Below are positions 1 through 42,607 of a DNA stretch of 42,607 nucleotides, piece after piece. Position 1 is the stretch's first letter; every line of letters begins with the position of its first letter. The position numbers were made by a program, and so were the translations under genes. This DNA is from Gammaproteobacteria bacterium (lineage in GTDB: Bacteria > Pseudomonadota > Gammaproteobacteria > SZUA-229), in NCBI GenBank assembly GCA_015488885.1, contig WFMW01000011.1, positions 1-42,607 of the forward strand, in the 5' to 3' direction. The notes under the pieces are model-generated. The model was given only the letters and a program-made list of their open reading frames with translations, had not been told where the DNA came from and made no database searches.

Positions 1-417
1 AAAAACAGCAATGCTCACACAGAGCGGTAGCAACCATTTTGTTTTCGCAAGATTATTACCAGCAGGGTCGCCTGGCCGGTTTTTTGTTAGCGCCGAACCA
101 GGCAGCCGGGTCTCGTTGGATTCTTTCTGGTAGCTATTATTGCCTGACTCAATATTGACCGGCTCAAACAGTTTAAGTAAAAAAATATACCAGAAAACGT
201 AACGACCACTATCAAACAGCCAGTAACCAGACCAGTTAAGCTGATTTATATAACCATAGGCAAGTGTGGCTGAGAAGAATGCCCATATTGCGCTGACCAG
301 CATCGTCATGGTCAGCCGCCGTGCCAGCTGACTTTGAGACCAGCTAAAGAGTAATAATAGCGTAAAAAAACTGTAGGCGAAAAAGGCTGCGGTGTAACTG
401 TAAAAACCGGAATTCAT
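1..417 (-). CDS. prsK: PrsK-like sensor histidine kinase, N-terminal membrane part (3' end outside window)
   Basis: The minus-strand frame is open from an ATG at 417 to the window edge and gives 139 residues beginning MNSGFYSYTAAFFAYSFF. Hydrophobic stretches at about residues 5-25, 36-58 and 70-85 are consistent with membrane helices. A hydrophilic Asn/Lys-rich linker follows at about 86-126, and another hydrophobic segment starts near 128. This resembles the multi-spanning N-terminus of PrsK, the histidine kinase associated with exosortase A/PEP-CTERM loci. The neighbouring FN3 lipoprotein and TIGR03013-type sugar transferase on the same strand support that. The kinase core lies outside the window, so the call rests on topology and context. 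The RBS is weak (GAGAAAA before the ATG), and a MITE ends only about 20 bp upstream of the start. Confidence 0.6.
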   Translation of the reverse strand, partial: MNSGFYSYTAAFFAYSFFTLLLLFSWSQSQLARRLTMTMLVSAIWAFFSATLAYGYINQLNWSGYWLFDSGRYVFWYIFLLKLFEPVNIESGNNSYQKESNETRLPGSALTKNRPGDPAGNNLAKTKWLLPLCVSIAVF

Positions 418-729: not shown

Positions 730-1131
730 TTATATCGTCACCTTGATTTCATTTGAATACAGACTTTCACGTCCATCACTATCAATGGTTGTCATAGTAA
801 AATAATAGGTTCCATGAGGCAAACTATTCAAAGTATAATCACTCACAAGCTGGCCATTTGCATCTTTAGCGCCATTTATATTCAGGCTACCGGTATAATT
901 ACCTGAATTGCTCCCATAATAAATTTTATAACCTGCAATCTGCTTCACAGGTAATGCAGTTCCATCTTCACGCATTGTAGGTACGCTCCAGTCCAGAACC
1001 TTTGCAGCAATGCCAGCGACTTTATTACTTGATCCAGCCGGTGTTGTTGCAGCACATCCGGTAATAAATAACAATGCAACAATACCTGCCAGCTTTATCA
1101 ACCTGGTAGTCAGTTTCTTACTATTCATCAT
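730..1131 (-). CDS. Small fibronectin type III-like lipoprotein
   Basis: This is a 133-aa protein with a short basic N-terminus, a hydrophobic h-region (LAGIVALLFI) and a lipobox ending TGC, so it is probably a signal peptidase II substrate anchored in the envelope. The mature part contains one FN3-like beta domain. It starts at LDWSVP, continues GYKIYYGSNSGNYTGSL and ends HGTYYFTMTTIDSDGRESLYSNE, the usual spacing of such domains in exosortase-associated proteins. The ATG at 1131 is chosen because AGGA (1141-1138) lies six bases upstream. A TTG two codons earlier and an ATG one codon later are the alternatives. It lies between the PrsK-like gene and the sugar transferase on the same strand, which suggests a role in EPS/PEP-CTERM surface assembly. 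The exact role is unknown. Confidence 0.8.
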   Translation of the reverse strand: MMNSKKLTTRLIKLAGIVALLFITGCAATTPAGSSNKVAGIAAKVLDWSVPTMREDGTALPVKQIAGYKIYYGSNSGNYTGSLNINGAKDANGQLVSDYTLNSLPHGTYYFTMTTIDSDGRESLYSNEIKVTI

Positions 1132-1646
1132 CCACAATCCTATAAGCAGCTATACCGCTTAAGTCAGTTTATTCTCGGGTATTTTTATGGATTTAATGAA
1201 TAACGGAATAGTTTTAAATATACCGCTACAATATGTGTTACACGACAACTGTAACCATAAATTATATTTTCATTTGGGATTTTTACAACGATTCAGGTTC
1301 GTTGTTTTTTGCTTTTGAAAATTTATATTTAGCCTGTACCTTCAAGACATGAAGAAGCAAATTTAAAATCGGGCGAATCATAGCACAGCGAAAAATAGAT
1401 TGCCAGAGTCATGACACTCTTTGTCGATTTAATAACACTATTTGACAAAAAACATCTGCAGCTCACAAAGAGCTGGCGCCATCAGGGATTTATTAATTTA
1501 TTGTTTTATCAAGAATAAAAGTCACAGAATAGCAACCTTTGAACCTGTTTCATTTAATAAATTGATTATAGTACAACGTACAGAAATTACCGCATATCCG
1601 TTATAAACTGACTAAATTTCAACATTTCAACTTAATCAGGTCATTA
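1132..1646. other. Intergenic region, 515 bp, AT-rich
   Basis: No open frame with a convincing start was seen. A GC-N10-CC pair at 1532-1545 reads, on the minus strand, AGGTTCAAAGGTTGCT. Its -12 half (TTGCT) is good but its -24 half is poor for sigma-54. It lies about 400 bases from the lipoprotein start, so it is only a weak promoter candidate. No intrinsic terminator with a clear T-tract was found behind the sugar transferase. Confidence 0.4.
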
Positions 1647-3065
1647 TCACGCACCTTTCGCCAGCAATACCACTTCAGCGGTTTGCAGCAGGATAAGGAA
1701 ATCCAGGAAGATGCTCTGATTTTTTACATAATAAAGGTCATATTGTAGTTTTTGCAGGCCATCTTCCTCGGTATTGCCGTATGAATAACGAATTTGCGCC
1801 CAGCCGGTCAGGCCCGGTTTTACCCGGTGGCGCTCTTCATAGTAGGGGATTTTTTCCGCCAGCCTGGCAACAAATTCCGGGCGCTCCGGACGGGGGCCAA
1901 TAAAACTCATATCCCCTTTCAATACATTAAATAACTGGGGCAGTTCATCGAGACGACCTTTTCTGAGCACCGAGCCAAGCCGAGTAATCCGGCTGTCATT
2001 TTTTGATGCCCAGCGTGCCACCCCATCTTTTTCCGCATCACTCACCATGCTGCGGAATTTGTATATCTTAAATGGCCGATTATCCTGTTTTACCCGAACC
2101 TGACTGTACAGGATCGGCCCTCGTCCGCGACTTTCAATGATAATTGCCAATGTCACCAGCACCATTAAAGGCAGGGCAAGCGGCAACAGTAACAGTACCA
2201 TGGTAATATCCAGCGTCCGTTTGGCAATACGCCGGAAAATATTTACTTTAAATCCATCGGATAAATATAACCAGCTCGGGTGAAGCATATCCAGCCTGAT
2301 TTTACCGGTTCGGCGCTCGCAGAAAGTCACCAGGTCAAGAATTTCAATACCACTCATTTTACAATCCAGCAGGTCTTTTGCCGGTAAGTTTGCCTGTCGC
2401 CGGTCATCAACCGCCAGCACAATTTCATCAATATCCTGCTCTTCAACAAACTGAATCAGTGGTTTGTCCAGAACGAGTAGATCCGATTGATTTTCTGTTT
2501 TTTCATCGCCATCCATGGCGACAAAGCCAATAATATTCAGACTTTCCAACTCACCGTTAGCCATCGCTTCACGGATAAGAGCCGCCCTTTTCCCTGCCCC
2601 CAACACAAGTATTCGTGTCCACATCGTGCCTTCTTTCACCACATTCCTGAAAAACAGGCGGATGAAGGTAATAAAGAAAAAACTTAGTGTAACAGCAATA
2701 AGCAAAACCCCTCGACCAAGAAAAAAACCAGGAACAATATAGAAGCTGACACCCAGCGGGATCAAACCCAGCAACAACCCACTGGCAATCCTCAGCACCA
2801 GCTCATCCAGAAACCGCCCGGCCTGACGCTGATAAACACCAAATGCAAGAAGACTTAGTTGCAATACACCTGCATAGGCCATCGCTTTAGGAAAAAAAGA
2901 ACCAAGGTGCTGTTGCCAGTCGAACCCTGCATAGCGAAAACATAAAGCCAGATACAGCGCAAACATCAGCGCAAGAAATTCTGTAACAGCCAGTACCACA
3001 AACTCAGTAGGCACATGGTAGCGAAATAATTGCGTTGAATGGCGAAAAAATCTGACGGTACTCAT
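1647..3065 (-). CDS. Undecaprenyl-phosphate sugar phosphotransferase, exosortase/PEP-CTERM-associated type
   Basis: This 472-aa protein is a polyprenyl-phosphate hexose-1-phosphate transferase (PHPT) that would start EPS repeat-unit synthesis by moving a sugar phosphate onto undecaprenyl phosphate at the inner membrane. Hydrophobic helices lie at about 20-44, 61-77, 92-115 and 119-138. A Rossmann-like CoA-binding segment (RILVLGAGKR) begins at about 151. The C-terminal bacterial sugar transferase domain (PF02397 type) runs from about 281 (KRTLDI, membrane anchor), through YKFRSM at 335-340 and RLDELPQLFNVLKGDMSFIG at 371-390, to RPERPEF, PGLTGWAQ and YDLYYV. Length and N-terminus fit TIGR03013, the PEP-CTERM-associated form of the family. 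The start is the ATG at 3065 with a poor RBS. A PrsK-like gene and an FN3 lipoprotein follow downstream. Confidence 0.9.
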   Translation of the reverse strand: MSTVRFFRHSTQLFRYHVPTEFVVLAVTEFLALMFALYLALCFRYAGFDWQQHLGSFFPKAMAYAGVLQLSLLAFGVYQRQAGRFLDELVLRIASGLLLGLIPLGVSFYIVPGFFLGRGVLLIAVTLSFFFITFIRLFFRNVVKEGTMWTRILVLGAGKRAALIREAMANGELESLNIIGFVAMDGDEKTENQSDLLVLDKPLIQFVEEQDIDEIVLAVDDRRQANLPAKDLLDCKMSGIEILDLVTFCERRTGKIRLDMLHPSWLYLSDGFKVNIFRRIAKRTLDITMVLLLLPLALPLMVLVTLAIIIESRGRGPILYSQVRVKQDNRPFKIYKFRSMVSDAEKDGVARWASKNDSRITRLGSVLRKGRLDELPQLFNVLKGDMSFIGPRPERPEFVARLAEKIPYYEERHRVKPGLTGWAQIRYSYGNTEEDGLQKLQYDLYYVKNQSIFLDFLILLQTAEVVLLAKGA

Positions 3066-3222: not shown

Positions 3223-4227
3223 CTATTCCTGCAAAAAGTCAGTAATGGCTCCACCATAAAAGGTTTTTGCCACCTCCCAGTTTGCCGGATCAACGGAATC
3301 CAGCAGATCGGCATAAACGATCATCGAATTTACATTTTGCCCCGTCTCTTTATTCAGCCAGAATGCCCGATACAGGGTTACATCGCCGTCGGCATCCATT
3401 TGTAACTGACTGGCCTGTAAAAAGTCATCCATATCATCCATTTGCATATAGACACTGGTATTTTCCGGCAACATAAACGGGGTTTGTCTGGCAATCACAA
3501 TTTCACCACCCCATTGTGCCTCAAACTGCGCGACATCAAACGCTTTCCACCAGTCCGGTTTTGTGGATTGATAACGTCCAATAAACTGTTTCGGACGCAA
3601 TTTTTCCAGATAGGCATCAACCCATCGTTCAAATAAACGCTTTTTATTGATCAGTTTTTTCTGCTTACCCTGATCATATAAATAACCGGCATGCTGTAAA
3701 TTGGCCATTACCGGGCCAATACTGCCAAGTGCGACACCAACCTTTTTTGCAATAACACGGTACGAGGCATTTAATAATGCTGGCGAGTTCAGGAAGGCAT
3801 ACAGCAAACGTATCCCTGCCGGATTAAATACCCGGCCTTTCTGCACCTGATGTACTAAACGTGGATCCTTATTGCCCTTAACAAAAACACCATCACACAA
3901 TGAACCAAGATACATATTACCGGCTTTATCCACAAAATGGATGGCTTGCTGCTTTAATTTCTCCGCCATTACCGGATTAATAAAATCAGCCAGCAGTAAC
4001 CCGGCATGCATAGCGCGCAGTCGCTGCAATAAAGCTGAAAAATTTTGCTGCGGCGCCCATGCCTGTATACATGCGACTGAACGAACATTATTCTGCATTA
4101 ATACAACATAATCTTTACCGGAAGCTGTATCTTTAACCTGAAAAACAGGCCTGTCCATCCCGGTCATTTGTTGATTCAAATGGTTCAGCGTCTTTATTAA
4201 GATTTGTTGTTTATTATTATCCAGCAT
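3223..4227 (-). CDS. AbiEi-family (type IV antitoxin-like) protein, orphan
   Basis: This is a 334-aa protein. The middle and C-terminal regions resemble the AbiEi_2 family (PF09952), the transcription-regulating antitoxin of type IV AbiE systems. Shared traits are a segment LLLADFINPVMAEKL (about residues 75-89) followed by IHFVDKAGNMYL, and a helical winged-helix-like region (about 142-182). Next comes the family's most recognisable block, WGGEIVIARQTPFMLP, then a tyrosine-containing strand (VYMQ). The ATG at 4227 is taken because AAGAG lies just upstream; an upstream extension to 4290 has no family similarity. In AbiE systems a nucleotidyltransferase toxin (AbiEii) follows directly, but here the next gene is the sugar transferase, so the antitoxin-like gene stands alone. 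It may be a domesticated transcription regulator. Confidence 0.7.
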   Translation of the reverse strand: MLDNNKQQILIKTLNHLNQQMTGMDRPVFQVKDTASGKDYVVLMQNNVRSVACIQAWAPQQNFSALLQRLRAMHAGLLLADFINPVMAEKLKQQAIHFVDKAGNMYLGSLCDGVFVKGNKDPRLVHQVQKGRVFNPAGIRLLYAFLNSPALLNASYRVIAKKVGVALGSIGPVMANLQHAGYLYDQGKQKKLINKKRLFERWVDAYLEKLRPKQFIGRYQSTKPDWWKAFDVAQFEAQWGGEIVIARQTPFMLPENTSVYMQMDDMDDFLQASQLQMDADGDVTLYRAFWLNKETGQNVNSMIVYADLLDSVDPANWEVAKTFYGGAITDFLQE

Positions 4228-4426
4228 TACTATGCTCTTTTTATTATCAAAGCCAGGAGCTTGTCCAAGACAAACCCAACACGTGAACATCCGGGACAGA
4301 TTCTATCATATTTCATTAATAATGAACGACACTATTTACCCTGATCTAATAACAAATCAATCCTTATCCTTTAGACACTACCAACTTCTTTTAAATCGGC
4401 ATACATTTATAGCTTTCCCGCGCAGA

Positions 4427-4957: not shown

Positions 4958-5353
4958 TCATTCGGTTTTTATTACAAGGGTTTTATTTGCCCTGATAGTT
5001 CATAGAAATATTTCTGAACAGGGATTATGGCTGTAGCATGATAAAATACATTATCGTAACAGAACCTTCACACCTTAACCTTATGTCACTTTACCAACAA
5101 AAATTGTCGAATTTTATTACATTATTCAACAATAAAAATATACATTTTTTATTATCTCATTGATATAAAAAGAATTAAAATAATTAGCATGAATATTGCA
5201 TAATCATATTTGAAACACGTATTTAATGTTTTTTCAATCACCAGTGGTGTTTTGAACAATATTTAACCAATCAGAAAAGTATTTTAGACACGAAAGCACA
5301 ATATATTATAAAACACTAATTTTAACGGACAAACGCCAGCAATAAATACAATA
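4958..5353. other. Intergenic region between divergent genes, 396 bp
   Basis: This is a very AT-rich spacer that must hold promoters for both flanking genes. The only structured items seen are a candidate sigma-70 promoter at 5285-5312 and one copy of the GTCG-N7-TTACA arrangement at 5106-5121, which is the reverse complement of the repeats at 32141-32356. No small ORF with a convincing RBS was found. Confidence 0.4.
5285..5312 (+). promoter_or_regulatory. Candidate sigma-70 promoter for the HDOD kinase
   Basis: TAGACA (5285-5290, five of six matches to TTGACA) and TATAAA (5307-5312) are separated by 16 bases. Transcription would start about 35 bases before the ATG at 5354. Confidence 0.4.
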
Positions 5354-7486
5354 ATGGATCACGTAGAAAAACAGTTACTCATGCACGCCAATATCGACAG
5401 ACTTCCCTGCCTGCCGCATGTTTTGTTACATCTACTGGATATTTGCCAGAGTGAAAATCCATCTTACAATAAACTGATCCACGCCCTCAAAAAAGACCCT
5501 GCTTTGTATATGCGTGTCTTTTCAGCACATTACCGAACCCCTTGCACTGCTGACGACAATACCAGTCCCGAACACAGACTACATCAAACCGACATCCACA
5601 CGATTAAAAGCATTATCGTGACCGCAGCGGTACAACAGTTTTTTTCCCGCAACGAAGCGGAGCATACCGATTTCATTAAACAACACTGGCAGCACTCCGT
5701 CTACTGCGCCTGCATGGCAGAAGCGTTAGCACAATTATCTCACTACACCGATGTCGATGAAGCTTATACAGCTGGTTTATTACATGATATCGGGCAACTG
5801 GCACTGGAAATTAATTATTCCGACGATTATACCTCAGCATTTAAGCAGCATGGTTTACAGGCTGACTTCTTTACCCAGGAACAACAGCTTTATCACACGA
5901 CTCATCAGGCAGTCGGTGCAACTTTATTAGCCCGATATGGGGCCAGTAATTTTATCTGCGATGCAGTACGCTATCATCATGAACCCGTAGAACAGATACT
6001 CGATGCTCACCCATTGGTAAAAATTGTTTACCTCGCCAATGCATTCAGCAACACGGAATTCCATAGCAATGATAACAAACCAAACAATAACAAACTCTTT
6101 GAAAGCGCAGAGCAATTGCTTGGGCTGAATAAAAGCCTGATTCTGGGCGCACTGGAAAAAACGACTGAACGCGTCAATGCTTACAACAGCACACTGGATA
6201 TTCAACCCGTCACTGAAACCACAGATAAAAAAGTTATTCAGCAAATTACTGCCAATGATGAACAGAAACTGATACAACTGGCTGCACAAATACGCAATAT
6301 TGCCTTACTGAGCAATATTCACCAGCCTTTGTCACATGCCGATAACCGCACTGTATTACTTGATACGATTGCCCAGCACAGCAGCATTTTATTCGGCATC
6401 AAACAGACAATTGTGTTTCTATACAGCAACACCACAGAGCGTTTACATGCACTTGCCAGCAGCAATCAACCCTCACAGTTAAATGATTTTAGCCTGCCAC
6501 TACAGGCCGGTAGAAGCCTGGTAGCGGATACCTTATTAAGCAAATCACCCAGTCATACTTTTGCGCAAAACAACGGTGCCAGTAGCCTGAGTGTTATCGA
6601 CCGACAGTTAATCGGCCTGGGAAATAAAAAGGGTTTTATCTGCCTGCCAATGATTATAAACAATACCGCACTGGGGGCACTGGTTTTTGCCACCGATGAA
6701 ATACAATACCAGTATTTATGGAAACAACACTCACTGTTAGCGCACTTTACCAACGAAGTTGCCCAGGCTATCAGTGACCAGCAAAACCAGAGCGCCACCT
6801 TACCCAACGACACGGCAGCATATTCAGGCCTGCAAAACCGCATCCACGAGATGATACATGAAGTCCGTAACCCACTCAGTATCATGAACAATTACCTTGG
6901 TATATTGAGCTATAAACTGGAAGACAATAAACCTGCCCAGGAAGATATTGAAACCATCAAAACAGAAATTGACCGTGTTGGCATGATTATTAATCGTTTA
7001 TCTGAAAACCATACCAGCACCGATGAAACGGCTGCGGTTGATATTAATACCATTATTACTGATCTCACCCATATTTTTCAAACCTCTTTATTTACCGCGA
7101 ACAAAATTCAGATTAGCCTGGATCTGGACGATAATATCCAGGCAATCCAGAGCAATGCTAACGCCTTAAAACAGATTTACACCAACTTGATAAAAAATGC
7201 AGTTGAAGCACTTTCAACAAATGGTCAAATTATGGTCTACACTCAAGATCATGTGAATGTTGATGGTAAGGAACACCTTGAAATTTGTGTCGCAGATGAT
7301 GGCCCCGGTATTGCTGAAGATATTCTGCCAAAACTTTTTTCACCGGTAGAAACAAGCAAGGATGGTGATCATGCTGGCCTCGGACTTACTATTGTTAAAA
7401 ATCTGGTAAGTGAGCTGCATGGCTCCATTCGTTGCAGAAGTGGTGAAAAGGGCACCAGCTTCCATATATTGTTACCAAAAACATAA
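5354..7486 (+). CDS. HDOD-GAF sensor histidine kinase
   Basis: This 710-aa protein has no obvious membrane segment, so it is probably a cytoplasmic sensor. Residues 1 to about 230 form an HDOD domain (RLPCLPHVLLHLLDI at 16-30, then LLHDIGQLAL at 142-151 with His144-Asp145, and VRYHHEP at about 205-211). A GAF-like sensory region covers about 320-470. The kinase core follows, with the phospho-acceptor His502 in HEVRNPLS, the N box NLIKNAVEA (about 612-620), the G1 box DDGPGI (about 648-653) and the G2 box GLGLTIVKNL (about 675). All catalytic boxes look intact. The ATG at 5354 lacks a strong RBS. The REC-PAS-GGDEF-EAL gene that begins about 140 bp downstream on the same strand is the obvious phosphotransfer partner, linking this kinase to c-di-GMP. 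The signal sensed is unknown. Confidence 0.88.
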   Translation: MDHVEKQLLMHANIDRLPCLPHVLLHLLDICQSENPSYNKLIHALKKDPALYMRVFSAHYRTPCTADDNTSPEHRLHQTDIHTIKSIIVTAAVQQFFSRNEAEHTDFIKQHWQHSVYCACMAEALAQLSHYTDVDEAYTAGLLHDIGQLALEINYSDDYTSAFKQHGLQADFFTQEQQLYHTTHQAVGATLLARYGASNFICDAVRYHHEPVEQILDAHPLVKIVYLANAFSNTEFHSNDNKPNNNKLFESAEQLLGLNKSLILGALEKTTERVNAYNSTLDIQPVTETTDKKVIQQITANDEQKLIQLAAQIRNIALLSNIHQPLSHADNRTVLLDTIAQHSSILFGIKQTIVFLYSNTTERLHALASSNQPSQLNDFSLPLQAGRSLVADTLLSKSPSHTFAQNNGASSLSVIDRQLIGLGNKKGFICLPMIINNTALGALVFATDEIQYQYLWKQHSLLAHFTNEVAQAISDQQNQSATLPNDTAAYSGLQNRIHEMIHEVRNPLSIMNNYLGILSYKLEDNKPAQEDIETIKTEIDRVGMIINRLSENHTSTDETAAVDINTIITDLTHIFQTSLFTANKIQISLDLDDNIQAIQSNANALKQIYTNLIKNAVEALSTNGQIMVYTQDHVNVDGKEHLEICVADDGPGIAEDILPKLFSPVETSKDGDHAGLGLTIVKNLVSELHGSIRCRSGEKGTSFHILLPKT

Positions 7487-13668: not shown

Positions 13669-13684
13669 TGTAACTTTTACCGAC
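13669..13684 (+). promoter_or_regulatory. Single TGTAA-N7-CGAC motif
   Basis: TGTAACTTTTACCGAC has exactly the same architecture as the three repeats at 32141-32356, including the TAC before CGAC. It lies between the divergent TPR and exonuclease genes. No GG-N10-GC pair typical of sigma-54 promoters was found next to it, so function is doubtful. Confidence 0.25.
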
Positions 13685-29720: not shown

Positions 29721-30737
29721 TTACTTCAGCAACAAACGGATACGTCTCATATATAGTTTAACTGTGGGCTGCATCTGCCTGCCCAACCCCGCATTTATTC
29801 TAAACAGCATTAACTTATGGATATGCCGCATATCCATTAACCTGCCAGCGGGCGCCCGTTTAACCTTATCAAGTGAAACCTGCAGGTGATTCCATCCCGG
29901 TTTTAATTCATAAGCATGATTATAACGATCGGTATATTCCTGATTATGCTGTTGATCTGAAATACGCAATACCAGATAAATACTACTCGTTGCAAGCAGA
30001 TATACCTTTACCGACAGATGATGATAAGCAGACCAGTCCGGGTAGGGATCAATGATTGCTATACCCTGATAACGTCCGGTTTTATCAAATTTTATTTCCG
30101 CTATTTTACGGCCATCCAGAGTCTGCAACCGAGCAGGCGTATCGTCGATACTCATGTGCACGTGTTGTTTATGCAAAAAAACCTCAGACCAGGGTTTGCT
30201 AAAGTTTATAATGACTGGAAAGGCCTGATTACGTTGCCAGTAAGCGATGGAAACAGGAAGCAGCGGAAACAGGCTGGCAACCAGTAATAACAGCGCAACA
30301 AGGTACAACCCCGCCTGCCAGATAATAGTTTTTATATGTTTTTTATCTGCCTGCCGACGTAAATCCAGCGCAATGCACACGCTTAATACCGAAAAAATAC
30401 CCAGTGCATCACGCAAAAAATCTATCACTGATGCAGTTCTTGGGGTAAAAAGCTGGATCAGCTCAATACCTGCACCCAGCCCAAGCGCAATCATTGCCGC
30501 ATAGAAATACATTTTAAGCGGATGACGATGTTTAAAATAATCTGTCTGGCGTAACAGGTACAGGCATAATACCGCGATACAGCCAAATAATGGCGTATGG
30601 CCAAAATTCTGTAGCTCACGCCATAACAGCGAATTCCCTGGCAGGGAAACAAAACCAACAAACAATAGCAAACTTACAATTACTGTAAAACTTAACAACT
30701 GCTTCCATTTAGCATAAGAAACTATTTCTGATAACAC
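29721..30737 (-). CDS. VanZ-like membrane protein with C-terminal beta domain
   Basis: From the GTG at 30737 the protein has 338 residues. The N-terminal part is VanZ-like, with four or five hydrophobic helices and the family signature GIELIQLFTPRTASVIDFLRDALG. After the last helix (LYLVALLLLVASLFPLLP) comes a beta-rich extracytoplasmic domain of about 175 residues containing WSEVFLHKQHVHMSIDD, DKTGRYQGIAIIDPYPDWSAYHHLSVKVYL and PGWNHLQVSLDKVK, which resembles carbohydrate-binding jelly-roll modules. The GTG lies one base after the ATPase stop (TAAAGTG). Earlier ATG codons at 30806 and 30797 would overlap the ATPase. VanZ-family genes are frequent in exosortase/EPS clusters. The role is unknown. 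Confidence 0.8.
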   Translation of the reverse strand: MLSEIVSYAKWKQLLSFTVIVSLLLFVGFVSLPGNSLLWRELQNFGHTPLFGCIAVLCLYLLRQTDYFKHRHPLKMYFYAAMIALGLGAGIELIQLFTPRTASVIDFLRDALGIFSVLSVCIALDLRRQADKKHIKTIIWQAGLYLVALLLLVASLFPLLPVSIAYWQRNQAFPVIINFSKPWSEVFLHKQHVHMSIDDTPARLQTLDGRKIAEIKFDKTGRYQGIAIIDPYPDWSAYHHLSVKVYLLATSSIYLVLRISDQQHNQEYTDRYNHAYELKPGWNHLQVSLDKVKRAPAGRLMDMRHIHKLMLFRINAGLGRQMQPTVKLYMRRIRLLLK

Positions 30738-30738
30738 T

Positions 30739-31608
30739 TTATACCCGGCGGACAACAGGCGGCAACAGGCCCTCACGGTGCAACTCCACGACGACATGCA
30801 AAGCATCTTCACCATTGAGAATCAGTTTATTTTTCAAACCACCGAGGATAAACAGCCGATGACAGATTAAATTAATTTTTCTTGGTACCCCGGCACTGAA
30901 TTTATGTATCAGCGACATGGCTTCATGGGTGATTTCAGGACTACCTATCCAGCCAACCTGGTGCAGGCGATGTTCTACATAAGCTACAGTTTCTTCCTTA
31001 TTTAAGGCATCAAGATGCGATGCAGCAATCAGCCGCTGATGTAACTGCTCCATACCTGGTGCACGGATGTTATCGAGCAGCGCCTCCTGGCCAACAAGAA
31101 AAATTTGTAATAACAACTGGTTTTGAAACTGCATATTAGACAACAGCCTTAAATCTTCCAGCCCCTGTTTGCTCAGGCACTGCGCCTCATCAATAATGAG
31201 TATATTACGCATTCCCTTGCGTGCCCCTTCAATTAAATACCGCTTAAACGCTTCCCACTGCGTTAATTCTTTTACTGCCATATGCACATTGAATGCTTCA
31301 ATCACAGCATCAAGCAAAGCATCAGCACGAATCTGGGCACTTTCCAGGGTAACTGCACGCACAAATTCAGGATTAAGCTCAGCCATCAGCGTTGCGATAA
31401 GCGTTGTTTTCCCTGTGCCCGGCGCACCGGTGACGGCCACAATACCTTCTCCCTCGGTTATGGCATATTTAAGATAGGAATGGGCATTTTCATAACTACG
31501 GTGCCCATAGGAAAAACGGCTGTCCGGACTTAGACGGAAAGGCTGATCCTGTAGACGATAACATGATTTATAAACATCGAGCATGGTATGGCTAATACCG
31601 GCTGGCAC
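30739..31608 (-). CDS. AAA ATPase of the exosortase/PEP-CTERM-associated ExeA-like type
   Basis: This 289-aa ATPase has Walker A GAPGTGKTT (about 61-69) and Walker B ILIIDEAQ (about 134-141). It also has a sensor-like segment QIFLVGQE and a winged-helix C-terminal region (SLIHKFSAGVPRKINLICHR). The N-terminal YRLQDQPFRLSPDSRFSY is the hallmark of the ExeA-like ATPases, and this size fits TIGR03015, found in PEP-CTERM loci. The GTG at 31608 is preferred because AGAGAG lies five bases upstream; an ATG at 31584 has no SD. It is translationally coupled to the VanZ-like gene. An intrinsic terminator ends only 22 bases upstream of the start. Confidence 0.85.
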   Translation of the reverse strand: MPAGISHTMLDVYKSCYRLQDQPFRLSPDSRFSYGHRSYENAHSYLKYAITEGEGIVAVTGAPGTGKTTLIATLMAELNPEFVRAVTLESAQIRADALLDAVIEAFNVHMAVKELTQWEAFKRYLIEGARKGMRNILIIDEAQCLSKQGLEDLRLLSNMQFQNQLLLQIFLVGQEALLDNIRAPGMEQLHQRLIAASHLDALNKEETVAYVEHRLHQVGWIGSPEITHEAMSLIHKFSAGVPRKINLICHRLFILGGLKNKLILNGEDALHVVVELHREGLLPPVVRRV

Positions 31609-31630
31609 CGGACTCTCTTCTCAATCCTGA

Positions 31631-31666
31631 TAAAAAAACCGCAGCAGGGTGAACTTACCCTGCTGC
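31631..31666 (-). terminator. Strong intrinsic terminator between micropeptide gene and ATPase gene
   Basis: A perfect ten-base stem (31641-31650 with 31657-31666; GCAGCAGGGT paired with ACCCTGCTGC) has a six-base loop. On the minus strand it is followed by GG and a run of seven T (31638-31632). It lies downstream of the small membrane peptide gene at 31733-31822 and upstream of the ATPase start, so it either ends the small transcript or acts as an attenuator. Confidence 0.85.
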
Positions 31667-31732
31667 TATAGACTGAGAATTTTAACACACATGCATCGAC
31701 ACTATTTTGTCTTGGCCAATAGAAGCTTTGTC

Positions 31733-31822
31733 CTAGCCAATAGAAGCAAAACTAAATAACGCCATGACAAATAATGACAGAAACACAACTACAAACGTGA
31801 GTTTTCTTGTATTTTCTTCCAT
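31733..31822 (-). CDS. 29-aa membrane micropeptide
   Basis: This is a very short gene, called from sequence signals rather than homology. The peptide starts MEENTRKL and continues as a single hydrophobic helix rich in Val, Phe and Leu (LTFVVVFLSLFVMALFSFASIG), so it would be a single-pass membrane peptide with an acidic-basic N-terminal tail. GAGGAG at 31835-31830 lies seven bases before the ATG, the best Shine-Dalgarno sequence in the neighbourhood. A strong terminator follows about 70 bases downstream and a sigma-54 promoter match lies about 240 bases upstream, so the signals fit a real transcription unit. It may also be a leader peptide for the ATPase-VanZ pair. No PEP-CTERM motif is present. 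Confidence 0.6.
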   Translation of the reverse strand: MEENTRKLTFVVVFLSLFVMALFSFASIG

Positions 31823-32059
31823 TTCATTTCTCCTCAATACCTGCCACGGATAATGACAGGTAAAGTTACAACGCATAGATACCATCAATACAACAGCACT
31901 ACACAACAAGTTTAAAAACACGATATTCCCTTTAATACCAACTACTTCCAAAATAAAAAGCACTATGATTCAAGCAAAATATCACCCTGTAAAACAACAC
32001 TACAAACTAAACCTATATACAATTTAGCCGCCACATTAACTAACGGGCATATAACACTA

Positions 32060-32076
32060 AGCATATAGCGTGCCTA
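32060..32076 (-). promoter_or_regulatory. Sigma-54 promoter (-24/-12)
   Basis: Read on the minus strand the sequence is TAGGCACGCTATATGCT. Its -24 element GGCACG matches the TGGCACG consensus apart from the first base. Its -12 element ATGCT matches TTGCW apart from one base, and GG and GC are ten bases apart as required. The start of transcription would be about 32049, roughly 225 bases before the micropeptide ATG. It is the best sigma-54 match I found in the window. Confidence 0.7.
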
Positions 32077-32140
32077 AATTAAAAAACTCAACAAAAATAG
32101 ACACTTAATAAAAAGCAGGTAGCCAAAAAACACTAAAAAG

Positions 32141-32356
32141 TGTAAAGAATATCGACCTTAATTCTTGAAAACCTTACACTACCGCATGCTTATAGGCACT
32201 GATTTCTAATATTTTATAGTGGATCAGCTAAAACACACTAAAAACACCACAATTCTGTAATATTTACCGACAAATTACAAGCCCTGTAAGCAATATGCTT
32301 ATATTATCATATATTGATATGGCAATGTAACACCCTTAACTGTAAACAATACCGAC
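32141..32356 (+). promoter_or_regulatory. Three TGTAA-N7-CGAC repeats, likely activator-binding sites
   Basis: The copies are at 32141-32156, 32256-32271 and 32341-32356, all in the same orientation and all with exactly seven bases between TGTAA and CGAC. The bases before CGAC are TAT, TAC and TAC. They lie about 67, 182 and 267 bp upstream of the -24 element of the sigma-54 promoter at 32060-32076, where binding sites of an enhancer-type activator are expected. PrsR, the partner of PrsK, is the natural candidate because PrsK-type genes occur in this window, but this is inferred. The surrounding 31823-32451 spacer (629 bp, AT-rich) contains no other gene that I could support. Confidence 0.6.
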
Positions 32357-33334: not shown

Positions 33335-33895
33335 CTACGCCGCAGCAGAGTCCGCCGCTGGTTCATTCTGGACAGATAAGGCTTTTATCTGATTGTCTGC
33401 AAACACCTGCTGCATATCCAGCACAATCACGAAATGATCATCGACCTTCCCCATGGCTTCAATAAATTCAAACTGAACTCTCGTTCCCAGAGAAGGCGCT
33501 TTCTCAAGCTGATCCGGCCTTAACTCAATCACTTCCTGAACCGCATCGGCAAGCACCCCGAGAACAGTCAGCGTGGCTTCAATTTCAATTTCGATAATAA
33601 TGATACAGGTATCCACATCTGGCTGTTTGGCCGCCATGGAAAATTGCTGACGCAAATCAACAATGGGTACCACATTACCACGCAGATTGATCACCCCAAG
33701 CATATAGTTCGGCGTGCGTGGAACCGGCGTTATTTGAGCATATTCAAGCACTTCACGTACTCTGGAGATTTCGGTAGCAAACGCCTCGCCATCCAGTGAG
33801 AAGGTTAAATACTGTGTTGATACATTATTTTCTGAAATATCCGTTGCAGGAACAGCAACCTGAGGTGAGTTTTGATCTGATTGATTGTTTTCCAT
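33335..33895 (-). CDS. cheW: CheW-like chemotaxis coupling protein
   Basis: This is a 186-aa protein. The CheW domain (about residues 28-170) starts QYLTFSLDGEAFATEISRVREVLEYAQITPVPRTPNYMLGVINLRGNVVPIVDLRQQF, which holds the family's most conserved stretch (P-N-Y-x-L-G-V-I-N-L-R-G). It is flanked by short disordered ends rich in Asn/Ser and Ala. CheW joins chemoreceptors to the CheA kinase at the cytoplasmic tips of receptor arrays. No cheA, cheY, cheR or cheB lies in the window, so it may serve the three receptor genes upstream together with a kinase elsewhere. The ATG at 33895 has little SD sequence and sits nine bases after a long stem-loop. Confidence 0.92.
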   Translation of the reverse strand: MENNQSDQNSPQVAVPATDISENNVSTQYLTFSLDGEAFATEISRVREVLEYAQITPVPRTPNYMLGVINLRGNVVPIVDLRQQFSMAAKQPDVDTCIIIIEIEIEATLTVLGVLADAVQEVIELRPDQLEKAPSLGTRVQFEFIEAMGKVDDHFVIVLDMQQVFADNQIKALSVQNEPAADSAAA

Positions 33896-33904
33896 ACGAC
33901 ATTA

Positions 33905-33945
33905 CCGATAGTTAAGTGTTAAACCGCCTACACTATTACTATCGG
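33905..33945. other. Long stem-loop ahead of cheW
   Basis: CCGATAGT (33905-33912) pairs perfectly with ACTATCGG (33938-33945). An inner stem AGTGT with ACACT extends it, with a short bulge between. No T-tract follows on the minus strand, so it is more likely an mRNA processing or protection structure, or an operator, than a terminator. It separates the first receptor gene from cheW. Confidence 0.55.
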
Positions 33946-34014
33946 CAAAAACGCAGGAAACTTTAGAAAAATGAATACTCAGGCCTTAGACCGCTTAAAC
34001 AATTAAAAAAGACA

Positions 34015-36633
34015 TCAGGCCACATCAGCCTTTCCCTGCTCACTATCCAGTTTGAAGAAAACCATGGCGTTACGCTGCTCATCAGCCTGTCTCGACAAAA
34101 CTTCTGCCGAAGCCGCCATTTCACCTGCAGAAATAGCCGAACGCTGCACTACCTGATCGAGTTGCTGCAACGCCTGATTCATTTCTGCACTACGACTTTC
34201 CTGCTCACGGACCGTTACATTGATCTCCTCTACCAGTTCAGCAGTTTGCTTGATATCAGGCACCAGGCTGGTTAGCTTATCCCCTGCCTGTTCTGCAACC
34301 ACCAGCGTTGTGGATGACAGTTCACTAATTTCAGCCGCTGCTTTCTGACTACGCTCAGCCAGCTTGCGCACTTCGGACGCGACCACAGCAAAACTCTTGC
34401 CATTTTCGCCAGCTCGAGCCGCCTCAATGGCCGCATTTAACGCCAGCAGATTAGTTTGCCGGGCAATTTCTTCAACAATACGGATTTTTTGTGCAATATT
34501 TTTCATTGCCTTAACCGCCTGCATTACGGCCTGTCCACTTGCATCGGCATTAATGGCCGCAGTACGCGCAATGCCTCCAGTCTGCTCCGAATTGCTTGCA
34601 TTGAGGCTGATATTAGCAGCCATCGTTTCCATCGAAGCGGAAATCTGTTCCAGTGATGCAGCCTGTTCCGAGGCACCCATGCCCAGTTTCTGGGCAACTT
34701 CATTTACTTTCTTCGACGTAGCAGCACTTTGATCCGCATTTTTATAAACCGTAGAAATAACCTGTGTCAGTTGTTCGACGGTGGTACTGACATCATTGTT
34801 GAGCTGTCCCAGTATCCCCTGATAATTCGCATCGGCATCCATTTTTTTAGTCAGATCACCGGATGCCAATGCCCGCATAACATCACCAACATCTTCAATC
34901 GCCGAGCGGGTAACACCTAGCAACTGATTGATACCTACCGCCATCACCTTGTGAAAACCCTCCTTGCCTTTAATCGAAATGGCGCCATCAAAATCACCCT
35001 GAGTAGCTGATTTGACAATCATTTCAATCTGTTTTTCTACCTGAACATCTGCACTCCGGTTGATCCATTCAATAACAGTACCGAGATAATCATCATGGTC
35101 AATCACCGGTGTCATGGATATATCCAGATACAAATTACCAATATCAATAGATAACTGTTTGTTATCCTGCAAATAAAGGCTATCAAAGTTGCGTAATTCA
35201 GGCACATTAGACAAAAAGCCCAAATCCTGTCCCAACATGTTGTCTGCTGAAAACTCCGGTGCCACTTCCTGTATAACCGACTCAATCGACTGGAATAAAT
35301 GAATAGCAGAATGATTCATATAGATAAGCCTGCCACTATCATCATTCATCGTTACACACATCGATGCCCTGTCCAGTGCCGTTTTTATGCGCTCATTGTC
35401 TGCTGCGGTTATCGCATCAAGTTTCAGACGATCACGAAGCTGTGTCTGCATAACTGAAAGCGAGTGCAACAGGCATCCGATTGCATCCTTACGCTGGGTA
35501 TCAATATCATTATCGAACTGCTTGTTTGCAATGTGCGCAGAAACAGTAACTGCTCGGTTGAGATGTAACGAGATATTTCGGGCAATCAACCACGAAAACA
35601 GCAAAATAGTCATAACACATATAAATATAATAAGAGCAAACTGTTCTGTATTATTGCGCATAGCAAATTCGGCAGTCTGGTTGACTTTGTTAATCATACC
35701 CTGCTCAATAGAAACCAGTGATAAAATTAACTTACGCGCCTGCTGCAACACACCGGTATATTCAGATTGGATCAGATAGGCATCTGACCGCCATTTCTGC
35801 GAACTATGGATGGTTATCATGGTTCGCAAATTATCCATAAAAGTGAGCCGAACTTTTTTCAGTTGTTCCACTGCATCCGCCTGCTCCAGTGTTAACAGAT
35901 CATCATTGGCAGATATTTGATTAAATGTTTTCCTGGCCTGCGCTTCATACAGGTTAATATTAATAAGTGCCGACGGGCTTTTGAAGGCAAGATAAAGGCG
36001 CATTTCGCTAATAATTCTGTTCCAGGCATAACGTAATTCATACAAACTACTGGCGAATGCCTTTCTGCTGGCAGACACATCTTCATCATTCTCAGATGAA
36101 ATCATCTGTGAAATCAACTGCAGGATTTCTCTACTTAATGGATTGATATGTGCAGAGGAATATTTTATTGCCGGGAAGTTTTCCATATCATTTTTAGCAT
36201 ACAAAATAAACTGTTGTTTATAGCTTGTTATTTTATTAATCGCTTGCTGAAGTTGTTCTACTTTACGCTGTATCCTGCTATCCGTTTCATTCTGATGAGA
36301 ATTCCCTGATAATGATAATTTTATTCTGGCAACAAGTTTCTGCATGGTTAACAATGATGCTATATAATTCTTTCTGTCCGCATTATTCTTACTCAGCAGA
36401 TAAAAACCCAACGACTCCGCACCTGCATCCAGCACATTATTTAACTGCTCCAGTTTATGCAAACGAAGTTCACTTTGCCTGTTCAATACCTTTAATGACT
36501 GATCCTGACGATCAAGCTTAAGCATAATAGCACCGCTTGCAACAACCATTACAATGACCGGCACACCGAATGCAAGCAAAAACTTTTTAAGAATAGATAA
36601 ATCGCCCCAGATACATTGAATCTGATTTTTCAT
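34015..36633 (-). CDS. Methyl-accepting chemotaxis protein 1
   Basis: This is an 872-aa receptor. A transmembrane helix near residues 12-36 ([21 protein letters not shown]) and a second one near 325-350 ([20 protein letters not shown]) bracket a helical periplasmic domain of about 290 residues. Inside the cell come a HAMP segment, a PAS-like module ([20 protein letters not shown] to [13 protein letters not shown]), another HAMP-like region ([13 protein letters not shown]) and the signalling hairpin. The tip is [27 protein letters not shown], with Asn and Ser in place of the His and Gly seen in the next two receptors (GEHGKGF). No C-terminal CheR-binding pentapeptide is seen. The ATG at 36633 is preferred over 36648 because GAGA lies at good spacing. 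Confidence 0.9.
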
Positions 36634-36739
36634 TTCATTCTCTTTCATACCTCTTATTTTATATGTTCAAAATATATTTCTTAATGGCCAACCGTTACCA
36701 GGCTTATTCTGATGGAAGATCTGATCACTCATCCATAAA

Positions 36740-39427
36740 TTAATCAGCCCCTCCCTGAGAAAAAAACTTCATGGACTGTTTCTGCTTATCCGACTCCTGA
36801 GTTAAAACCTGAGCGGAAGATGCCATTTTTTCAGCTGAAACAGCTGAACGCTGTACCACAGAATCCAGTTGCTGCAAGGCTGTGTTTATTTCATTGGCGC
36901 CACTGTCCTGTTCTCTCGCAGCGACACTTATTTCCTGTACCAGCCCTGCTGTTTTTTGAATTGACGGCACCAGATCATTTAAACGATCCCCAGCCAGTTC
37001 GGCGACAGTTACTGTGTCACCAGATAATTCACTAATTTCTGCCGCTGCCTTCTGGCTACGCTCTGCCAGTTTACGTACCTCTGCCGCTACGACAGCAAAA
37101 CCCTTTCCATGCTCACCCGCACGTGCAGCTTCAATGGCTGCATTTAACGCCAGTAAATTGGTTTGCCTGGATATTTCTTCAATAATTGAAATCTTTGTGG
37201 AAATCTGTTTTATTGAGCTGACTGCTTCTACCACAATCCGGCCACTTACTTCTGCATCAGCCGACGCTTCATTGGCAATTTTTTCTGTTTGCAATGCATT
37301 ATCCGCACTATGACTTATATTAGCGGCCATTTGCTCCATGGCAGAGGAAATCTGCTCAAGCGATGCTGCCTGTTCCGAAGATCCACTGCCAACCTGCTGT
37401 GCTACATTATTTACATCACTGGAAGTCATCGCCACCTGCTCGGCAGCCACCTGAATGGAATGAATAACGCTGGAAAGCCTGTCCACAGTCCTGTTTACAC
37501 TTTTTTTAAGCTGGGCGAAAACACCATCATAATTCCCTTCCATTGTTTTTGACAGATCACCCTGTGATAAGGCGGTTAGTACATTTTCTATATCGTTAAT
37601 GCTGTTTCCGGTATTTCCAACAATAAGATTGATACCTTCACCCAAATGATTATAGAACTGACTATCGCTAACAAAATTCAGTTTACGGTTAAAATCACCA
37701 TTGGCTACTGCCTGAACAACGGTCGCCAGTTCAGTTTCAATATTTATTTCTGCCGTTCTATCATCCCATTCGATAACACTGCCGGTATAACCGCCAGCTT
37801 CATCAGTAATAGTCGTAATCTTTACATCGAGCGTTATATTCGCAACTTCTATCTGTGCTTTACAGTTGCCCCGTTGCTGTTGCAATCTATGTGGGTGCAA
37901 TTCCTTAATATCAGGAAGAAAATCTATCGCATTACCAATAAGTTTCTCTATTTTAAAATCTATAATCAGGGATTGCAGCACCGGTGTAATTTTTTCAAAT
38001 AAGGCATAACAGGCTTTGTTTATATATAAAACGCAACCATTTTCATCCGTCATCATCACGCTGGTTGAAGCATTATCCAGTGCTGATGATATTCTTCCCG
38101 TTTTTACCGCCTGCTCCCGTGCTGCAGACAGATCCAGGCTGATTTTATTCTGCATAGTTTCAAGCTCCTGCAAAGCATGACCTACTTCATCTCTGGTTTT
38201 TATTTTCACCTCATTATCAAAATGGCCAGAACCAATTTTTTTAAATAATTCAAGTAATTGTTTTAAACCCGAAACCATGCCAACACCTATCCACATGGCA
38301 AAGGCAAGACTGAATATAACCGCTGTACCAATATAAAAAATCCGACGATGCAAATTAGTGCTCAGTCGATGTTGTTCTGCTGATGCCATATGTATAAATA
38401 GCTTCAGTGAAGTAACATAAAGACCGGCAGTCGCCTCTATTGCATGGCTACCCAGACGAAACAACCTGCTATTTTTATTCACATCAGCTGTTTTTACTGC
38501 ATGGTCATTAAAAGCCATAGCCATTACTGTATTGATATACGCCAAATTTATTTTTTTTGCCTTTTTAATTTCACTCGCAAGGGTTTCGACCATGGCGTGA
38601 TTGACTGCAAAGGCAAGTTTCAGCTTTTTATCAATAATACTTATATCTTTACGTACGTTATTAACCCGGTTAATCAGATCATATTTGCTCTCCTCTGTTA
38701 TAGTATGTCTTGCCATAATACCGGACACCGTACCGCGTAGAATGCCTAGATTATTAATCAGCTGAGGAAGCTCCCAGCTTATTACATTAACCAGATAATA
38801 ACGGTCTATATTTTTATCCACCACCATATAGGATTTTTCGGCTATTTGTGTAATCAGATTCTGAATATTTTCAACCAACTTATTATGTCGTTCGAACACC
38901 GTCGATGCACGAGCCGACAATGAACCTGTTTTTAACTTTAACCATTGTTGTTTTATTTTTTGCCATTTATTGCTTACCCCGAACCAGTCTTTCTCTGCAA
39001 TTTTTTTATCTATGATACGAATATCTTTATCGACGACTGCATTCACCGTTACAAGCTGGCTGGCTACAGTTTGATCACCATTTAATATCCTGCTTTCCAG
39101 GTCACGATGTCTTTCTATATCTATCAGCATGGGATTTAATGGTGTCAAAAACATTGCCCCCTGTATTTCCAGGCCAGCATATTTTATTTTCTGGCTATAA
39201 TCATTGATATAATCAGAGAATAATGATGCTAGCGGTAACATCAGCGCAACAATTACCAGAACCAGTTTCAATGAAAGATTCATTTTTGCAAACAGATTAA
39301 ATCGCTGCCACAATGATGATTTACGCTTTACACTGGAAACGCTTATTTTTTCACGTGCAGTACCGGCCTGCACTACTTGCTGCTGTGAAGTTTTATCCAG
39401 TTTGGTTATCGATATATTATTTTTCAT
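36740..39427 (-). CDS. Methyl-accepting chemotaxis protein 2
   Basis: This is an 895-aa receptor with the same plan as its neighbours. Its N-terminus is a cytoplasmic stretch of about 48 residues that contains QAGTAREK and [12 protein letters not shown]. The same stretch follows the PAS domain in the Aer-like receptor next door, which suggests descent from it by loss of PAS. Two transmembrane segments (about 50-72 and 355-380) enclose the helical periplasmic domain. A HAMP segment, a PAS-like module ([18 protein letters not shown] to [11 protein letters not shown]), a second HAMP-like region and the tip [27 protein letters not shown] follow. It ends [11 protein letters not shown], with no pentapeptide. 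The ATG at 39427 gives the longest frame; no strong RBS is visible. Confidence 0.9.
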
Positions 39428-39481
39428 AACAAATCATCATATAGTGGCAGGGATTATTTTTGTTTATGCCTTAAGGGCATC

Positions 39482-42400
39482 TTAATAACGAACAAAATTC
39501 GAGGTGTCGTAGTCATCATCCATATTCAGGTTAACACCACCCGTAGCTCCGTCACTTTCCGGCATAGCTGAAGATTTCTCCCCCATAGCTATACGCTCAT
39601 TACGTATCACCTTTGTTACCGATGTATTCGTTTCGGTTTTTTCTGGATTAATTATTGCCGTTGTGCTGGCAACATGACTTACGTCAGTAGGCTCTGCGCC
39701 GGTCGTAAAGAATGCCATTTCCTGCTGTTGTGCCGCCAGCACGTCCGATAGTTGCTCGGCTGCACTGGCCAACTGTTCGGAGGCAGCCGCTGATTGCTGT
39801 ACTACTGTGTCCAGTTGCTGAATTGCTGTATTAATTTCACTGGCGCCGCTATCCTGCTCACGCGAGGCCACACTTATTTCCTGTACCAGTTCAGCGGTTT
39901 TCTGAATATCCGGCACTAGATTAACCAGACCTTCTCCAGCATGTTCAGCTACTTCAACCGTACTGACTGACAGTTCGCTGATTTCTCCCGCTGCTTTCTG
40001 ACTACGTTCAGCCAGCTTGCGAACTTCTGAGGCAACCACCGCAAAACCCTTACCATGTTCACCCGCTCGTGCTGCTTCTATGGCAGCATTCAATGCCAGC
40101 AGGTTAGTCTGACGTGAAATTTCTTCAATGATGGAAATTTTTTCAGCAATGGATTTGATTGCCGTTACGGCTTTTGTAACCGAATCACCGCTAGCCTTTG
40201 CATCCTTCGCAACTTTTTGTGAAATTTGTTCTGTCTGCCCCGCATTATCTGCACTCTGGCGGATATTGGCAGTCATCTGCTCCATTGCAGATGAAATTTC
40301 TTCCAGTGAAGCTGCCTGTTCCGATGAACCCTGACCAATCTGTTTTGCCGTATCACTAACCTGTGTTGATGATATCGCTGCATTATCGGCGTTAGCCTGT
40401 ATATTTACTATCATTGAACCAATTTTTTCGGCACTGCTATTCAGTCCACTCTGTAGTTCCCCAAATACGCCTTTATAATTGCCTTCTATTCTGAACACCA
40501 GATCCCCCTGTGCTATATGCTCCATACCCTGTAGGACAATATTGATATTTTTACTGGTAATCAATAACATCTTGTTGATGCTTGCAGCCAGATCAAGATA
40601 GCTTTCATCCTGATGATTTCCAGTATCGAACTGGCTGAAATCGCCTTGTTCTGCAGCAGCAATTAGATGCTGGACAACTCGGTTGTGAGCGGTCTGATTT
40701 TCCCATTCAATAACGGTTCCCTGATGCTGTCCCTGATCATCCAAAACAGGGGTAGCAATAATCTGTAAATCAATGCCTGCTACAGACAGTTTCTTTGTAC
40801 AACTGGTGGTTAAAGTTTGTAATGCCGGACAGTTTGATGAAATTTTTGCCAGTAGTTTATCAATATTTTTTCCCGATAAATTTTCAGCATCAAAATCGGG
40901 GATAACCGATGTCAGTTCATCACTAATACTAACTAACATGGCTTGCACCGAATCATTCATATAGATAATATTATTGTTAACATCCGCCAACATGACATTG
41001 TTGCTGGCAACATCCAGTGCGGTTTTTATCCGCCCGCTATTGTTCGCAATCTCCGCCGTATTTTTAATATCAAAACCTAGCCTGGTCTGTAATGCTTTTA
41101 GGCCATCGAGAGTAATTGCAATTTCATCATTACCATTGATAACAATATCATTATCAAATTTACCACCGAGGATGGATTTGAACGTGGTAATTACCTGATT
41201 GAGTCCATGACTGATTCTCTTGCTTACCAGCAACGACAGACTGACAGCAAGCAAAATCACCATTAACACTATTGCCATGGACCAGTATAATTGTGTTGTC
41301 AAGGTGCTTAAACGCCTGTTTAATAATTTTGTTAATTGCCCTGATGAAACATTAAACAGCTCGACAGCTTTTTTTATGGCCGCCGTGCCTTTATTAAAAT
41401 ACATGGCGGCTTTATAATTCAATGTTGTCGAGTCTATAATGTCGGTTTCCGTTAGACTTGAAAAACCATGGTTAGCCATCTGAAATATTTTTAACGGTTG
41501 CTCAATCGTGGTTTTAACCGCCGGGTTATATTCGAGCATTTCGGACAGCCCGTTACCTATCCTGTCAAGATGCGTGCTAACTAGCACCACCAGGCGTTCC
41601 ATCCTGCTTTTCTGCATGGGGGACATTTTGTGTGCCGAAAGAATACCGGCACCAATGCCCCGTGCCTGGCCAACCGCATCGATCAAAGGCAATATATCGG
41701 TAACGATACGTGCCAGCTCATTACTGTCCTGATCAGGGTCAGTAGTTAGCTTTGCTGCATTGCGCATCGTTAGTGCCAGCGAAATAATCTGTTTGATTAA
41801 TCCTGTATGCCAGGCAAAACTGTCTGCTGCGACAATATGCTCAGAATTCCCCCCCTGCTGCTGCCAGTCGTTTTTTATCTTATTCCATAAATCAGTAATA
41901 GTATGGTTGTCCACAGTTGATAGACGTTTATCAATATCGTTGATATCACCGACTATTTTTTGACGTTGCCGGGTGAGCTGAGATTGATAGCCGGTATTAC
42001 CGTTCAGATAAGCATTGGTTTTACCACGATGCACAGCAATATCTGTAAGTAAATGCCGTAAAGGCAGGATATTGTTAACCCCGGCAAGTTCTGTTCGGGT
42101 GAAACCAAGCTGTTCTATCCGTCCATAAATAAACAGCCCGGAAAAGACAGTGGTACTTAATAACAACAGGCTAACCATCAGCATAATTTTCTGACCGACC
42201 GACAGTCGATTGAAAATATTTATTTTCTGTAAAACAGCTGACTTGTGCTTTATTTTACCAGCATTGATATCGGCATAATGTTTTTCTGCGGTACTGATTT
42301 CATCACCTGCAGGACGCGTTCTTACCGACATATAGCCGATTACTGAGCCATTCTCCATAAGCGGTGTTACATTGGCCTTAACCCAGTAAAAATCACCATT

Positions 42401-42607
42401 CTTGCAACGGTTTTTAACCAGTCCTGTCCATGTTTTACCGACCTTGACAGTATTCCATAAATCCTCAAAGGCTGCAGCTGGCATATCAGGATGGCGTACC
42501 ATATTATGGTTTTTGCCAATAAGCTCGTTTTCCTTATAACCACTTATGGTAATAAAATCGGTATTACAATAGGTGATAATCCCTTTTAAATTTGTTTTGG
42601 AAACCAG
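39482..42607 (-). CDS. Aer-like PAS-containing methyl-accepting chemotaxis protein 3 (5' end outside window)
   Basis: The frame is open to the window edge, giving at least 1041 residues; an internal Met at 42502 is not the true start. The visible N-terminus is an Aer-type PAS domain ([23 protein letters not shown], then [18 protein letters not shown] and [26 protein letters not shown]), the type that senses redox or oxygen through FAD in Aer. Next come a linker ([27 protein letters not shown]), two membrane segments around a helical sensor domain, HAMP, a PAS-like module ([17 protein letters not shown]) and the signalling tip GEHGKGF. The C-terminus is a longer variable tail ending [12 protein letters not shown], without a CheR pentapeptide. 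The FAD-binding residues cannot be judged because the start is missing. Confidence 0.92.

Follow-up and report, generated by a model that had tools for sequence, protein, structure and literature searches.

Why should the first gene behind a sigma-54 promoter with an ordered array of activator repeats encode a membrane peptide of only 29 residues, and what links that peptide to the PEP-CTERM-type genes that lie next to it? The question is raised by a locus in a 42,607-nucleotide contig of a gammaproteobacterial genome (WFMW01000011.1, assembly GCA_015488885.1), the whole of which we refer to as the window. A sequence-only reading of this DNA had proposed that three repeats in one orientation, 67, 182 and 267 bp upstream of an excellent −24/−12 element, serve a promoter for a micropeptide that matches no described family, that a strong terminator and then PEP-CTERM-type ATPase and VanZ-like genes follow, and that, given a PrsK-like kinase in the same organism, PrsK and PrsR control the unit. 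Here, we set the locus against its own genome, its relatives and the systems already described.

Promoter and activator boxes

The micropeptide gene lies at 31733..31822 on the minus strand (ATG at 31822, stop at 31733) and encodes 29 amino acids, MEENTRKLTFVVVFLSLFVMALFSFASIG, followed by a stop codon, with one predicted membrane helix. The sequence GAGGAG at 31830..31835 (−) reads as its Shine-Dalgarno element, and both this and the start codon are conserved among homologs, which occur in several genera. The proposed membrane peptide downstream of the promoter is thus borne out by a good ribosome site and a conserved family. The strong −24/−12 element ahead of it was recovered as well, at 32060..32075 (−) (AGGCACGCTATATGCT; score 19.7 on a hand-weighted consensus), with a predicted start near 32049 and a stretch of 237 bp from promoter to ATG. 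A sigma-70 promoter scan found 3 matches against 3.0 expected, and Rfam gave no match in the locus region.

Three exact minus-strand copies of the pattern GTCG-N7-TTACA fall within 216 bp (32141-32356) upstream of this element. The proximal box, a predicted PrsR site of the Haft motif 1 kind, occupies 32141..32156 (GTCGATATTCTTTACA), the middle box 32256..32271 (GTCGGTAAATATTACA), 115 bp above the proximal one, and the distal box 32341..32356 (GTCGGTATTGTTTACA), 85 bp above the middle one. They end at distances of 65, 180 and 265 bp above the sigma-54 16-mer, which upholds the same-orientation repeats originally placed at 67, 182 and 267 bp. Five boxes lie in the whole window; dinucleotide shuffles predict 0.14, no shuffle yielded as many as five, and three of the five stand upstream of the micropeptide promoter. 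The remaining two, also exact, lie at 13669-13684 and 5106-5121 without a convincing sigma-54 element, the former pointing at a TPR protein that is distantly PrsT-like (121 bits, below cut-off).

The arrangement is reminiscent of the element described by Haft et al. 2006, a 17-nt motif 1 that ends in TTTACA, is sometimes repeated and is followed by a sigma-54 motif, with a spacer of 32-92 nt (mean 62.8, SD 10.6) to the −24(GG)/−12(GC) positions and a phylogenetic profile that matches those of PrsR, PrsK and PrsT (PMC1569441). Compared with the motif as described in the text of that paper, the window shares the end sequence (TTTACA is present in two of the three boxes, the proximal and the distal), the orientation and the spacing (65 bp), and its genome likewise holds PrsR and PrsK over their cut-offs. 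The two differ in what comes first, a PEP-CTERM protein behind the Haft element and, in the window, a micropeptide heading an ATPase/exopolysaccharide run behind two or three boxes in an ordered array. What is new here is the micropeptide, the boxes fitting the previously published motif 1, and on this likeness we infer that they are sites for PrsR binding.

In the window genome, PrsR (TIGR02915; 711.4 bits, cut-off 502.6) and PrsK (TIGR02916; 728.6 bits, cut-off 300) are both encoded on contig C18, PrsT reaches 343 bits (cut-off 312), and there are eight PEP-CTERM candidates. The PrsK-like kinase ascribed to the organism thus exists, as a true PrsK at 729 bits and a further fragment at the window edge, whereas the intact kinase of the window (5354-7486) is not PrsK; it scores 80.5 bits against the TIGR02916 cut-off of 300, over its C-terminal half only, and was rejected as a candidate.

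The bare box pattern occurs at 20 sites in the whole genome, against 25 for the reversed control, and is not enriched, so that only clustering and pairing with sigma-54 elements are informative. When a box was required together with a TGGC-N8-TGC element at 45-75 bp, 37 family genomes gave 46 sites and the reversed controls none; in 21 genomes outside the family, the counts were 6 and 1. The non-random spread anticipated for the motif therefore fails for its bare form and holds for the sigma-54-paired form. Many of the paired sites precede genes whose products end in PEP or VPxPA sorting signals; in the window genome itself, another box with a sigma-54 element precedes a protein whose C-terminal sorting signal is of the VPLPP type, and a one-mismatch box with a sigma-54 element also precedes a PEP-CTERM protein. 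A full box and sigma-54 element are found, too, at a TonB-dependent receptor-like gene of this genome (L073:10674-12819, G000:C66), named from its sequence and not from a model, which suggests that the PrsR regulon extends past sorting-signal proteins.

The geometry of the array recurs in relatives, where the proximal box ends 65-96 bp above the sigma-54 element, mostly 73-75, and the second box usually lies 114-116 bp above the proximal one, distances of 103-104 and 124 bp also being seen. Taken modulo 10.5 bp, the distances between boxes are clustered (vector length 0.87, unique values), and the corresponding value for the proximal box distances is 0.66. These figures suggest box-to-box spacings of about whole helical turns, a phasing that small numbers and the relatedness of the genomes leave suggested rather than proven. 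In a promoter-anchored ungapped alignment, little is conserved besides the sigma-54 element and the AT-rich stretch before it, so that the spacing is probably not merely a matter of shared ancestry.

A micropeptide family with two classes

Homologs of the micropeptide, both classes described below taken together, were found in 26 of the 54 genomes of the GTDB family, one of these 26 only at a chance-level E-value. A class-wide search added one strong match outside the family (genome G231), its other matches being at chance level. The genomes are mostly drafts, many of them probably metagenome-assembled, and since the micropeptide alignment is too little conserved for searching contigs, the ATPase alignment was used as the query instead. 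The homologs form two classes, type I beside one ATPase subtype and type II not beside it.

Type I genes sit 136-285 bp upstream of that ATPase subtype. A sigma-54 element scoring at least 18.7 precedes all 17 distinct type I sequences. When one mismatch is allowed, 16 of them have a box, typically a pair some 115 bp from each other, L121 being the homolog without; most of these 17 loci come from one genus (g11) and are thus not independent. Seen from the ATPase, a type I micropeptide is found at 15 of 15 family loci of the subtype with upstream sequence present. At five more loci the contig ends cut the sequence short, and in one of these genomes, G065, the micropeptide lies on another contig. 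Two genomes considered as exceptions without a micropeptide, G010 and G036, were dismissed, as their contigs break off within the ATPase gene or just ahead of it.

The micropeptide is under purifying selection. Codon comparison gives a pN/pS of 0.27 within type I, pN being below pS in all 120 pairs, and of 0.30 within type II. Along the helix, conserved positions recur with a period of about 100 degrees; shuffling gave p = 0.001 for type I, p = 0.036 for the 31 sequences of both types and p = 0.09 for type II by itself. The conserved face of the window peptide comprises L8, V12, L15, V19 and L22, and a selected face of this kind implies packing against a partner or against the peptide itself. 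The charged N terminus (ENTRK) ahead of some 20 hydrophobic residues predicts an N-in orientation.

That the peptide matches no described family, as first supposed, held on closer search: the window micropeptide has no match in Pfam or NCBIfam, where one paralog gave only sub-threshold chance matches. Judged against TIGR02595 it is not a PEP-CTERM protein, having no PEP and carrying its charged residues before the helix, and literature searches found no paper on a micropeptide of the PEP-CTERM/PrsR system. By sequence comparison, we regard it as a new, conserved and previously unannotated family.

Type II genes (L109-L118, L128, L129, L137 and L138; for example, G025:C22:17819-17923) are stand-alone cassettes in varied neighbourhoods, with one to three copies per genome and a peptide of 35-37 residues. 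None of the 14 distinct sequences has a box, and there is a single weak −24/−12-like match, 32 bp from the ATG. An FNR-like site, defined by at least 8 of the 10 consensus positions of TTGAT-N4-ATCAA, lies 87-97 bp before the start in 7 of the 14 genes, in six of them at or near −95. In most of them the 5′ region can form a short stem-loop (84.5% of cells paired, with modest covariation), and they carry a strong Shine-Dalgarno sequence and usually a GGCGAC..GTCGCC terminator, an intrinsic terminator following 10 of the 14 genes. Genome G025 has type II without PrsR and without this ATPase subtype, and the presence of type II in such genomes indicates that the ancestral partner need not be operon-encoded.

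It is possible, and we put it forward tentatively, that a family of roughly 30-residue micropeptides has split into an operon-head class under PrsR and sigma-54 and a free-standing class behind an FNR-like site, the shared helix face tuning a common inner-membrane target and so coupling the production of surface matrix to oxygen or anaerobic signals. The split control predicted for the two classes would be the most novel part of our findings.

Genes downstream and their order in relatives

An intrinsic terminator with a 10-bp stem and a T run, GCAGCAGGGT-AAGTTC-ACCCTGCTGC then GGTTTTTTTA, lies between the micropeptide and the ATPase gene at 31632..31666 (−). The strong terminator first noticed here is thus real, but it is not a conserved design: a clear terminator is found at only one of the 17 type I loci, that of the window genome, with a weaker candidate in L125, and we reject it as a conserved element. 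Beyond it stand the two genes anticipated, an XrtA/PEP-CTERM-associated ATPase-like gene (30739..31608, −; likely start ATG 31584) and a gene for a VanZ-like membrane protein (29721..30815, −; NF037970 24 bits, cut-off 20; PF04892 26.9 bits, cut-off 30.1), which clusters with genes following the ATPase in four relatives. The ATPase resembles those of TIGR03015 in a nearly full-length match and in the adjoining exopolysaccharide genes. It departs from them in scoring below the curated cut-off (253.7 bits against 324.5; 273.5 bits for the ATPase of a relative) and in belonging to a distinct subtype, to whose profile it scores 502.9 bits and which always has the micropeptide ahead where upstream sequence exists. 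Just upstream of the locus, at 33335-42502, are three consecutive large Aer2-related chemoreceptors and a CheW-like gene.

Relatives carry on one strand, in order, the micropeptide, the ATPase, (the VanZ-like protein), (a nucleotide-sugar dehydrogenase), epsB, often a lipoprotein, prsK and prsR (L055, L059, L060, L067, L069, L070 and others), with one opposite-strand gene interrupting the run before prsK in L060 and L069. In the relative tested, PrsK, PrsR and EpsB all exceed their cut-offs; a few relatives found by the ATPase search are labelled Gammaproteobacteria. In the window this run is split, micropeptide, ATPase and VanZ-like genes lying at 29.7-31.8 kb and epsB, lipoprotein and prsK at 0-3 kb, and the roughly 26 kb between them include TypA, transhydrogenase, ferrochelatase and an ABC exporter.

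The second part comprises an EpsB_2-type polyprenyl glycosylphosphotransferase (1647..3065, −; TIGR03013 537 bits, cut-off 393), a small putative lipoprotein (730..1137, −) whose place between epsB and prsK is conserved in relatives, and the N terminus of PrsK (1..417, −), cut by the contig end and a weak match to TIGR02916 (32 bits). This fragment shares 35-45% identity (68-137 residues) with the PrsK encoded in the gene run of relatives, and 29% with the PrsK of contig C18. As several relatives have two PrsR genes, the operon-type prsR may lie beyond the end of the window contig. Adjoining epsB on its other side, at 3223-4290, is a homolog of AbiEi-type antitoxins or regulators (PF09952, 98 bits).

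What the micropeptide may do

The fit to the Haft element, the presence of PrsR and PrsK and the gene order of relatives together support the idea of a PrsK/PrsR-type sigma-54 unit with the micropeptide first, and this regulation of the locus is well supported by inference. PrsK would signal to PrsR, and phospho-PrsR would occupy the boxes, two or three in number and facing roughly the same side of the DNA helix, and loop to the sigma-54 polymerase at −24/−12, from which the transcript would start. In relatives, this transcript probably reads through the ATPase, the VanZ-like protein, epsB, prsK and prsR, so that the regulators are probably expressed from the very promoter they would control, closing a positive loop; in the window genome, the split run and the terminator would uncouple the micropeptide from the ATPase. 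The peptide itself is probably N-in in the inner membrane, its conserved face packing against a membrane partner, and within the exopolysaccharide/PEP-CTERM apparatus that the operon encodes it may well be an accessory or stabilising subunit. The comparisons above establish the sequence elements, their conservation, the gene linkage and the selection on the reading frame; read-through, topology, partner and function are proposed on that basis. Taken as a whole, that a PrsR-activated sigma-54 promoter drives a conserved single-pass micropeptide, the first gene of a PEP-CTERM-linked exopolysaccharide operon and such a subunit of its apparatus, is a reading we hold with moderate confidence, a little above even.

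A parallel is found in the pepA-prsT locus of Aquincola tertiaricarbonis (PMC9850573), where mapping identified an RpoN-dependent PEP-CTERM gene that lies behind a predicted enhancer of the Haft kind and is itself followed by a terminator. It shares with the window a sigma-54 promoter with a predicted upstream enhancer, a single first gene and a terminator ahead of the next gene of the PEP-CTERM system, and differs in that its first gene encodes a PEP-CTERM protein, whereas that of the window encodes a micropeptide without a PEP motif.

Another parallel concerns the partner. MgrB, of the PhoP/PhoQ system, is a small membrane regulator of a sensor kinase, and the micropeptide would likewise be a short single-pass membrane protein induced by a two-component system. 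On this model, the PrsR-induced micropeptide would bind the membrane domain of PrsK and damp or sustain its signalling, as MgrB does on PhoQ. The PrsR boxes ahead of the gene, its place in one gene run with prsK and prsR in relatives and the single helix with one conserved face all agree with such feedback, against which stand the type II paralogs that share the conserved face in the PrsR-less genome G025 and several PrsR genomes without any micropeptide homolog (G004, G006 and G033). Since operon linkage favours operon products as the partner and type II in G025 argues against PrsK as the sole one, we rank the apparatus subunit first and PrsK modulation second, as a doubtful reading that nevertheless has a real chance of being right.

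A small hydrophobic toxin like those of type I toxin-antitoxin systems, or a peptide that depolarises the membrane, would suit the size and hydrophobicity of the product and the dispersed type II cassettes at one to three per genome, yet type I is strictly linked to one operon and one promoter architecture and the Rfam search drew a blank in the region, and we think a toxin very unlikely. We find it likewise very unlikely that the short frame encodes an attenuator leader peptide, its translation deciding whether transcription passes the hairpin ahead of the ATPase: the hairpin after the frame is strong and a real terminator in the window, but its rarity at type I loci, the conservation of the amino-acid sequence without a run of one codon and the type II paralogs standing alone with terminators of their own all speak against it. 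That the frame is untranslated, only the promoter and an untranslated RNA being of consequence, would accommodate the long 5′ region and is barely credible in view of the low pN/pS, the conserved Shine-Dalgarno sequence and start, and homologs recognisable at the protein level in several genera and, outside the family, in one genome.

The locus also offers a comparative case for enhancer arrays at a sigma-54 promoter, with their near-whole-turn spacing of about 115 bp. More broadly, the micropeptide is probably an overlooked part of the PEP-CTERM/exopolysaccharide machinery, apparently induced by PrsR, placed first in the run that encodes this regulator and the sugar transferase, and absent from Pfam and NCBIfam. 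As such, it may provide a small, testable handle on PEP-CTERM/exosortase function and on the signal that PrsK senses.
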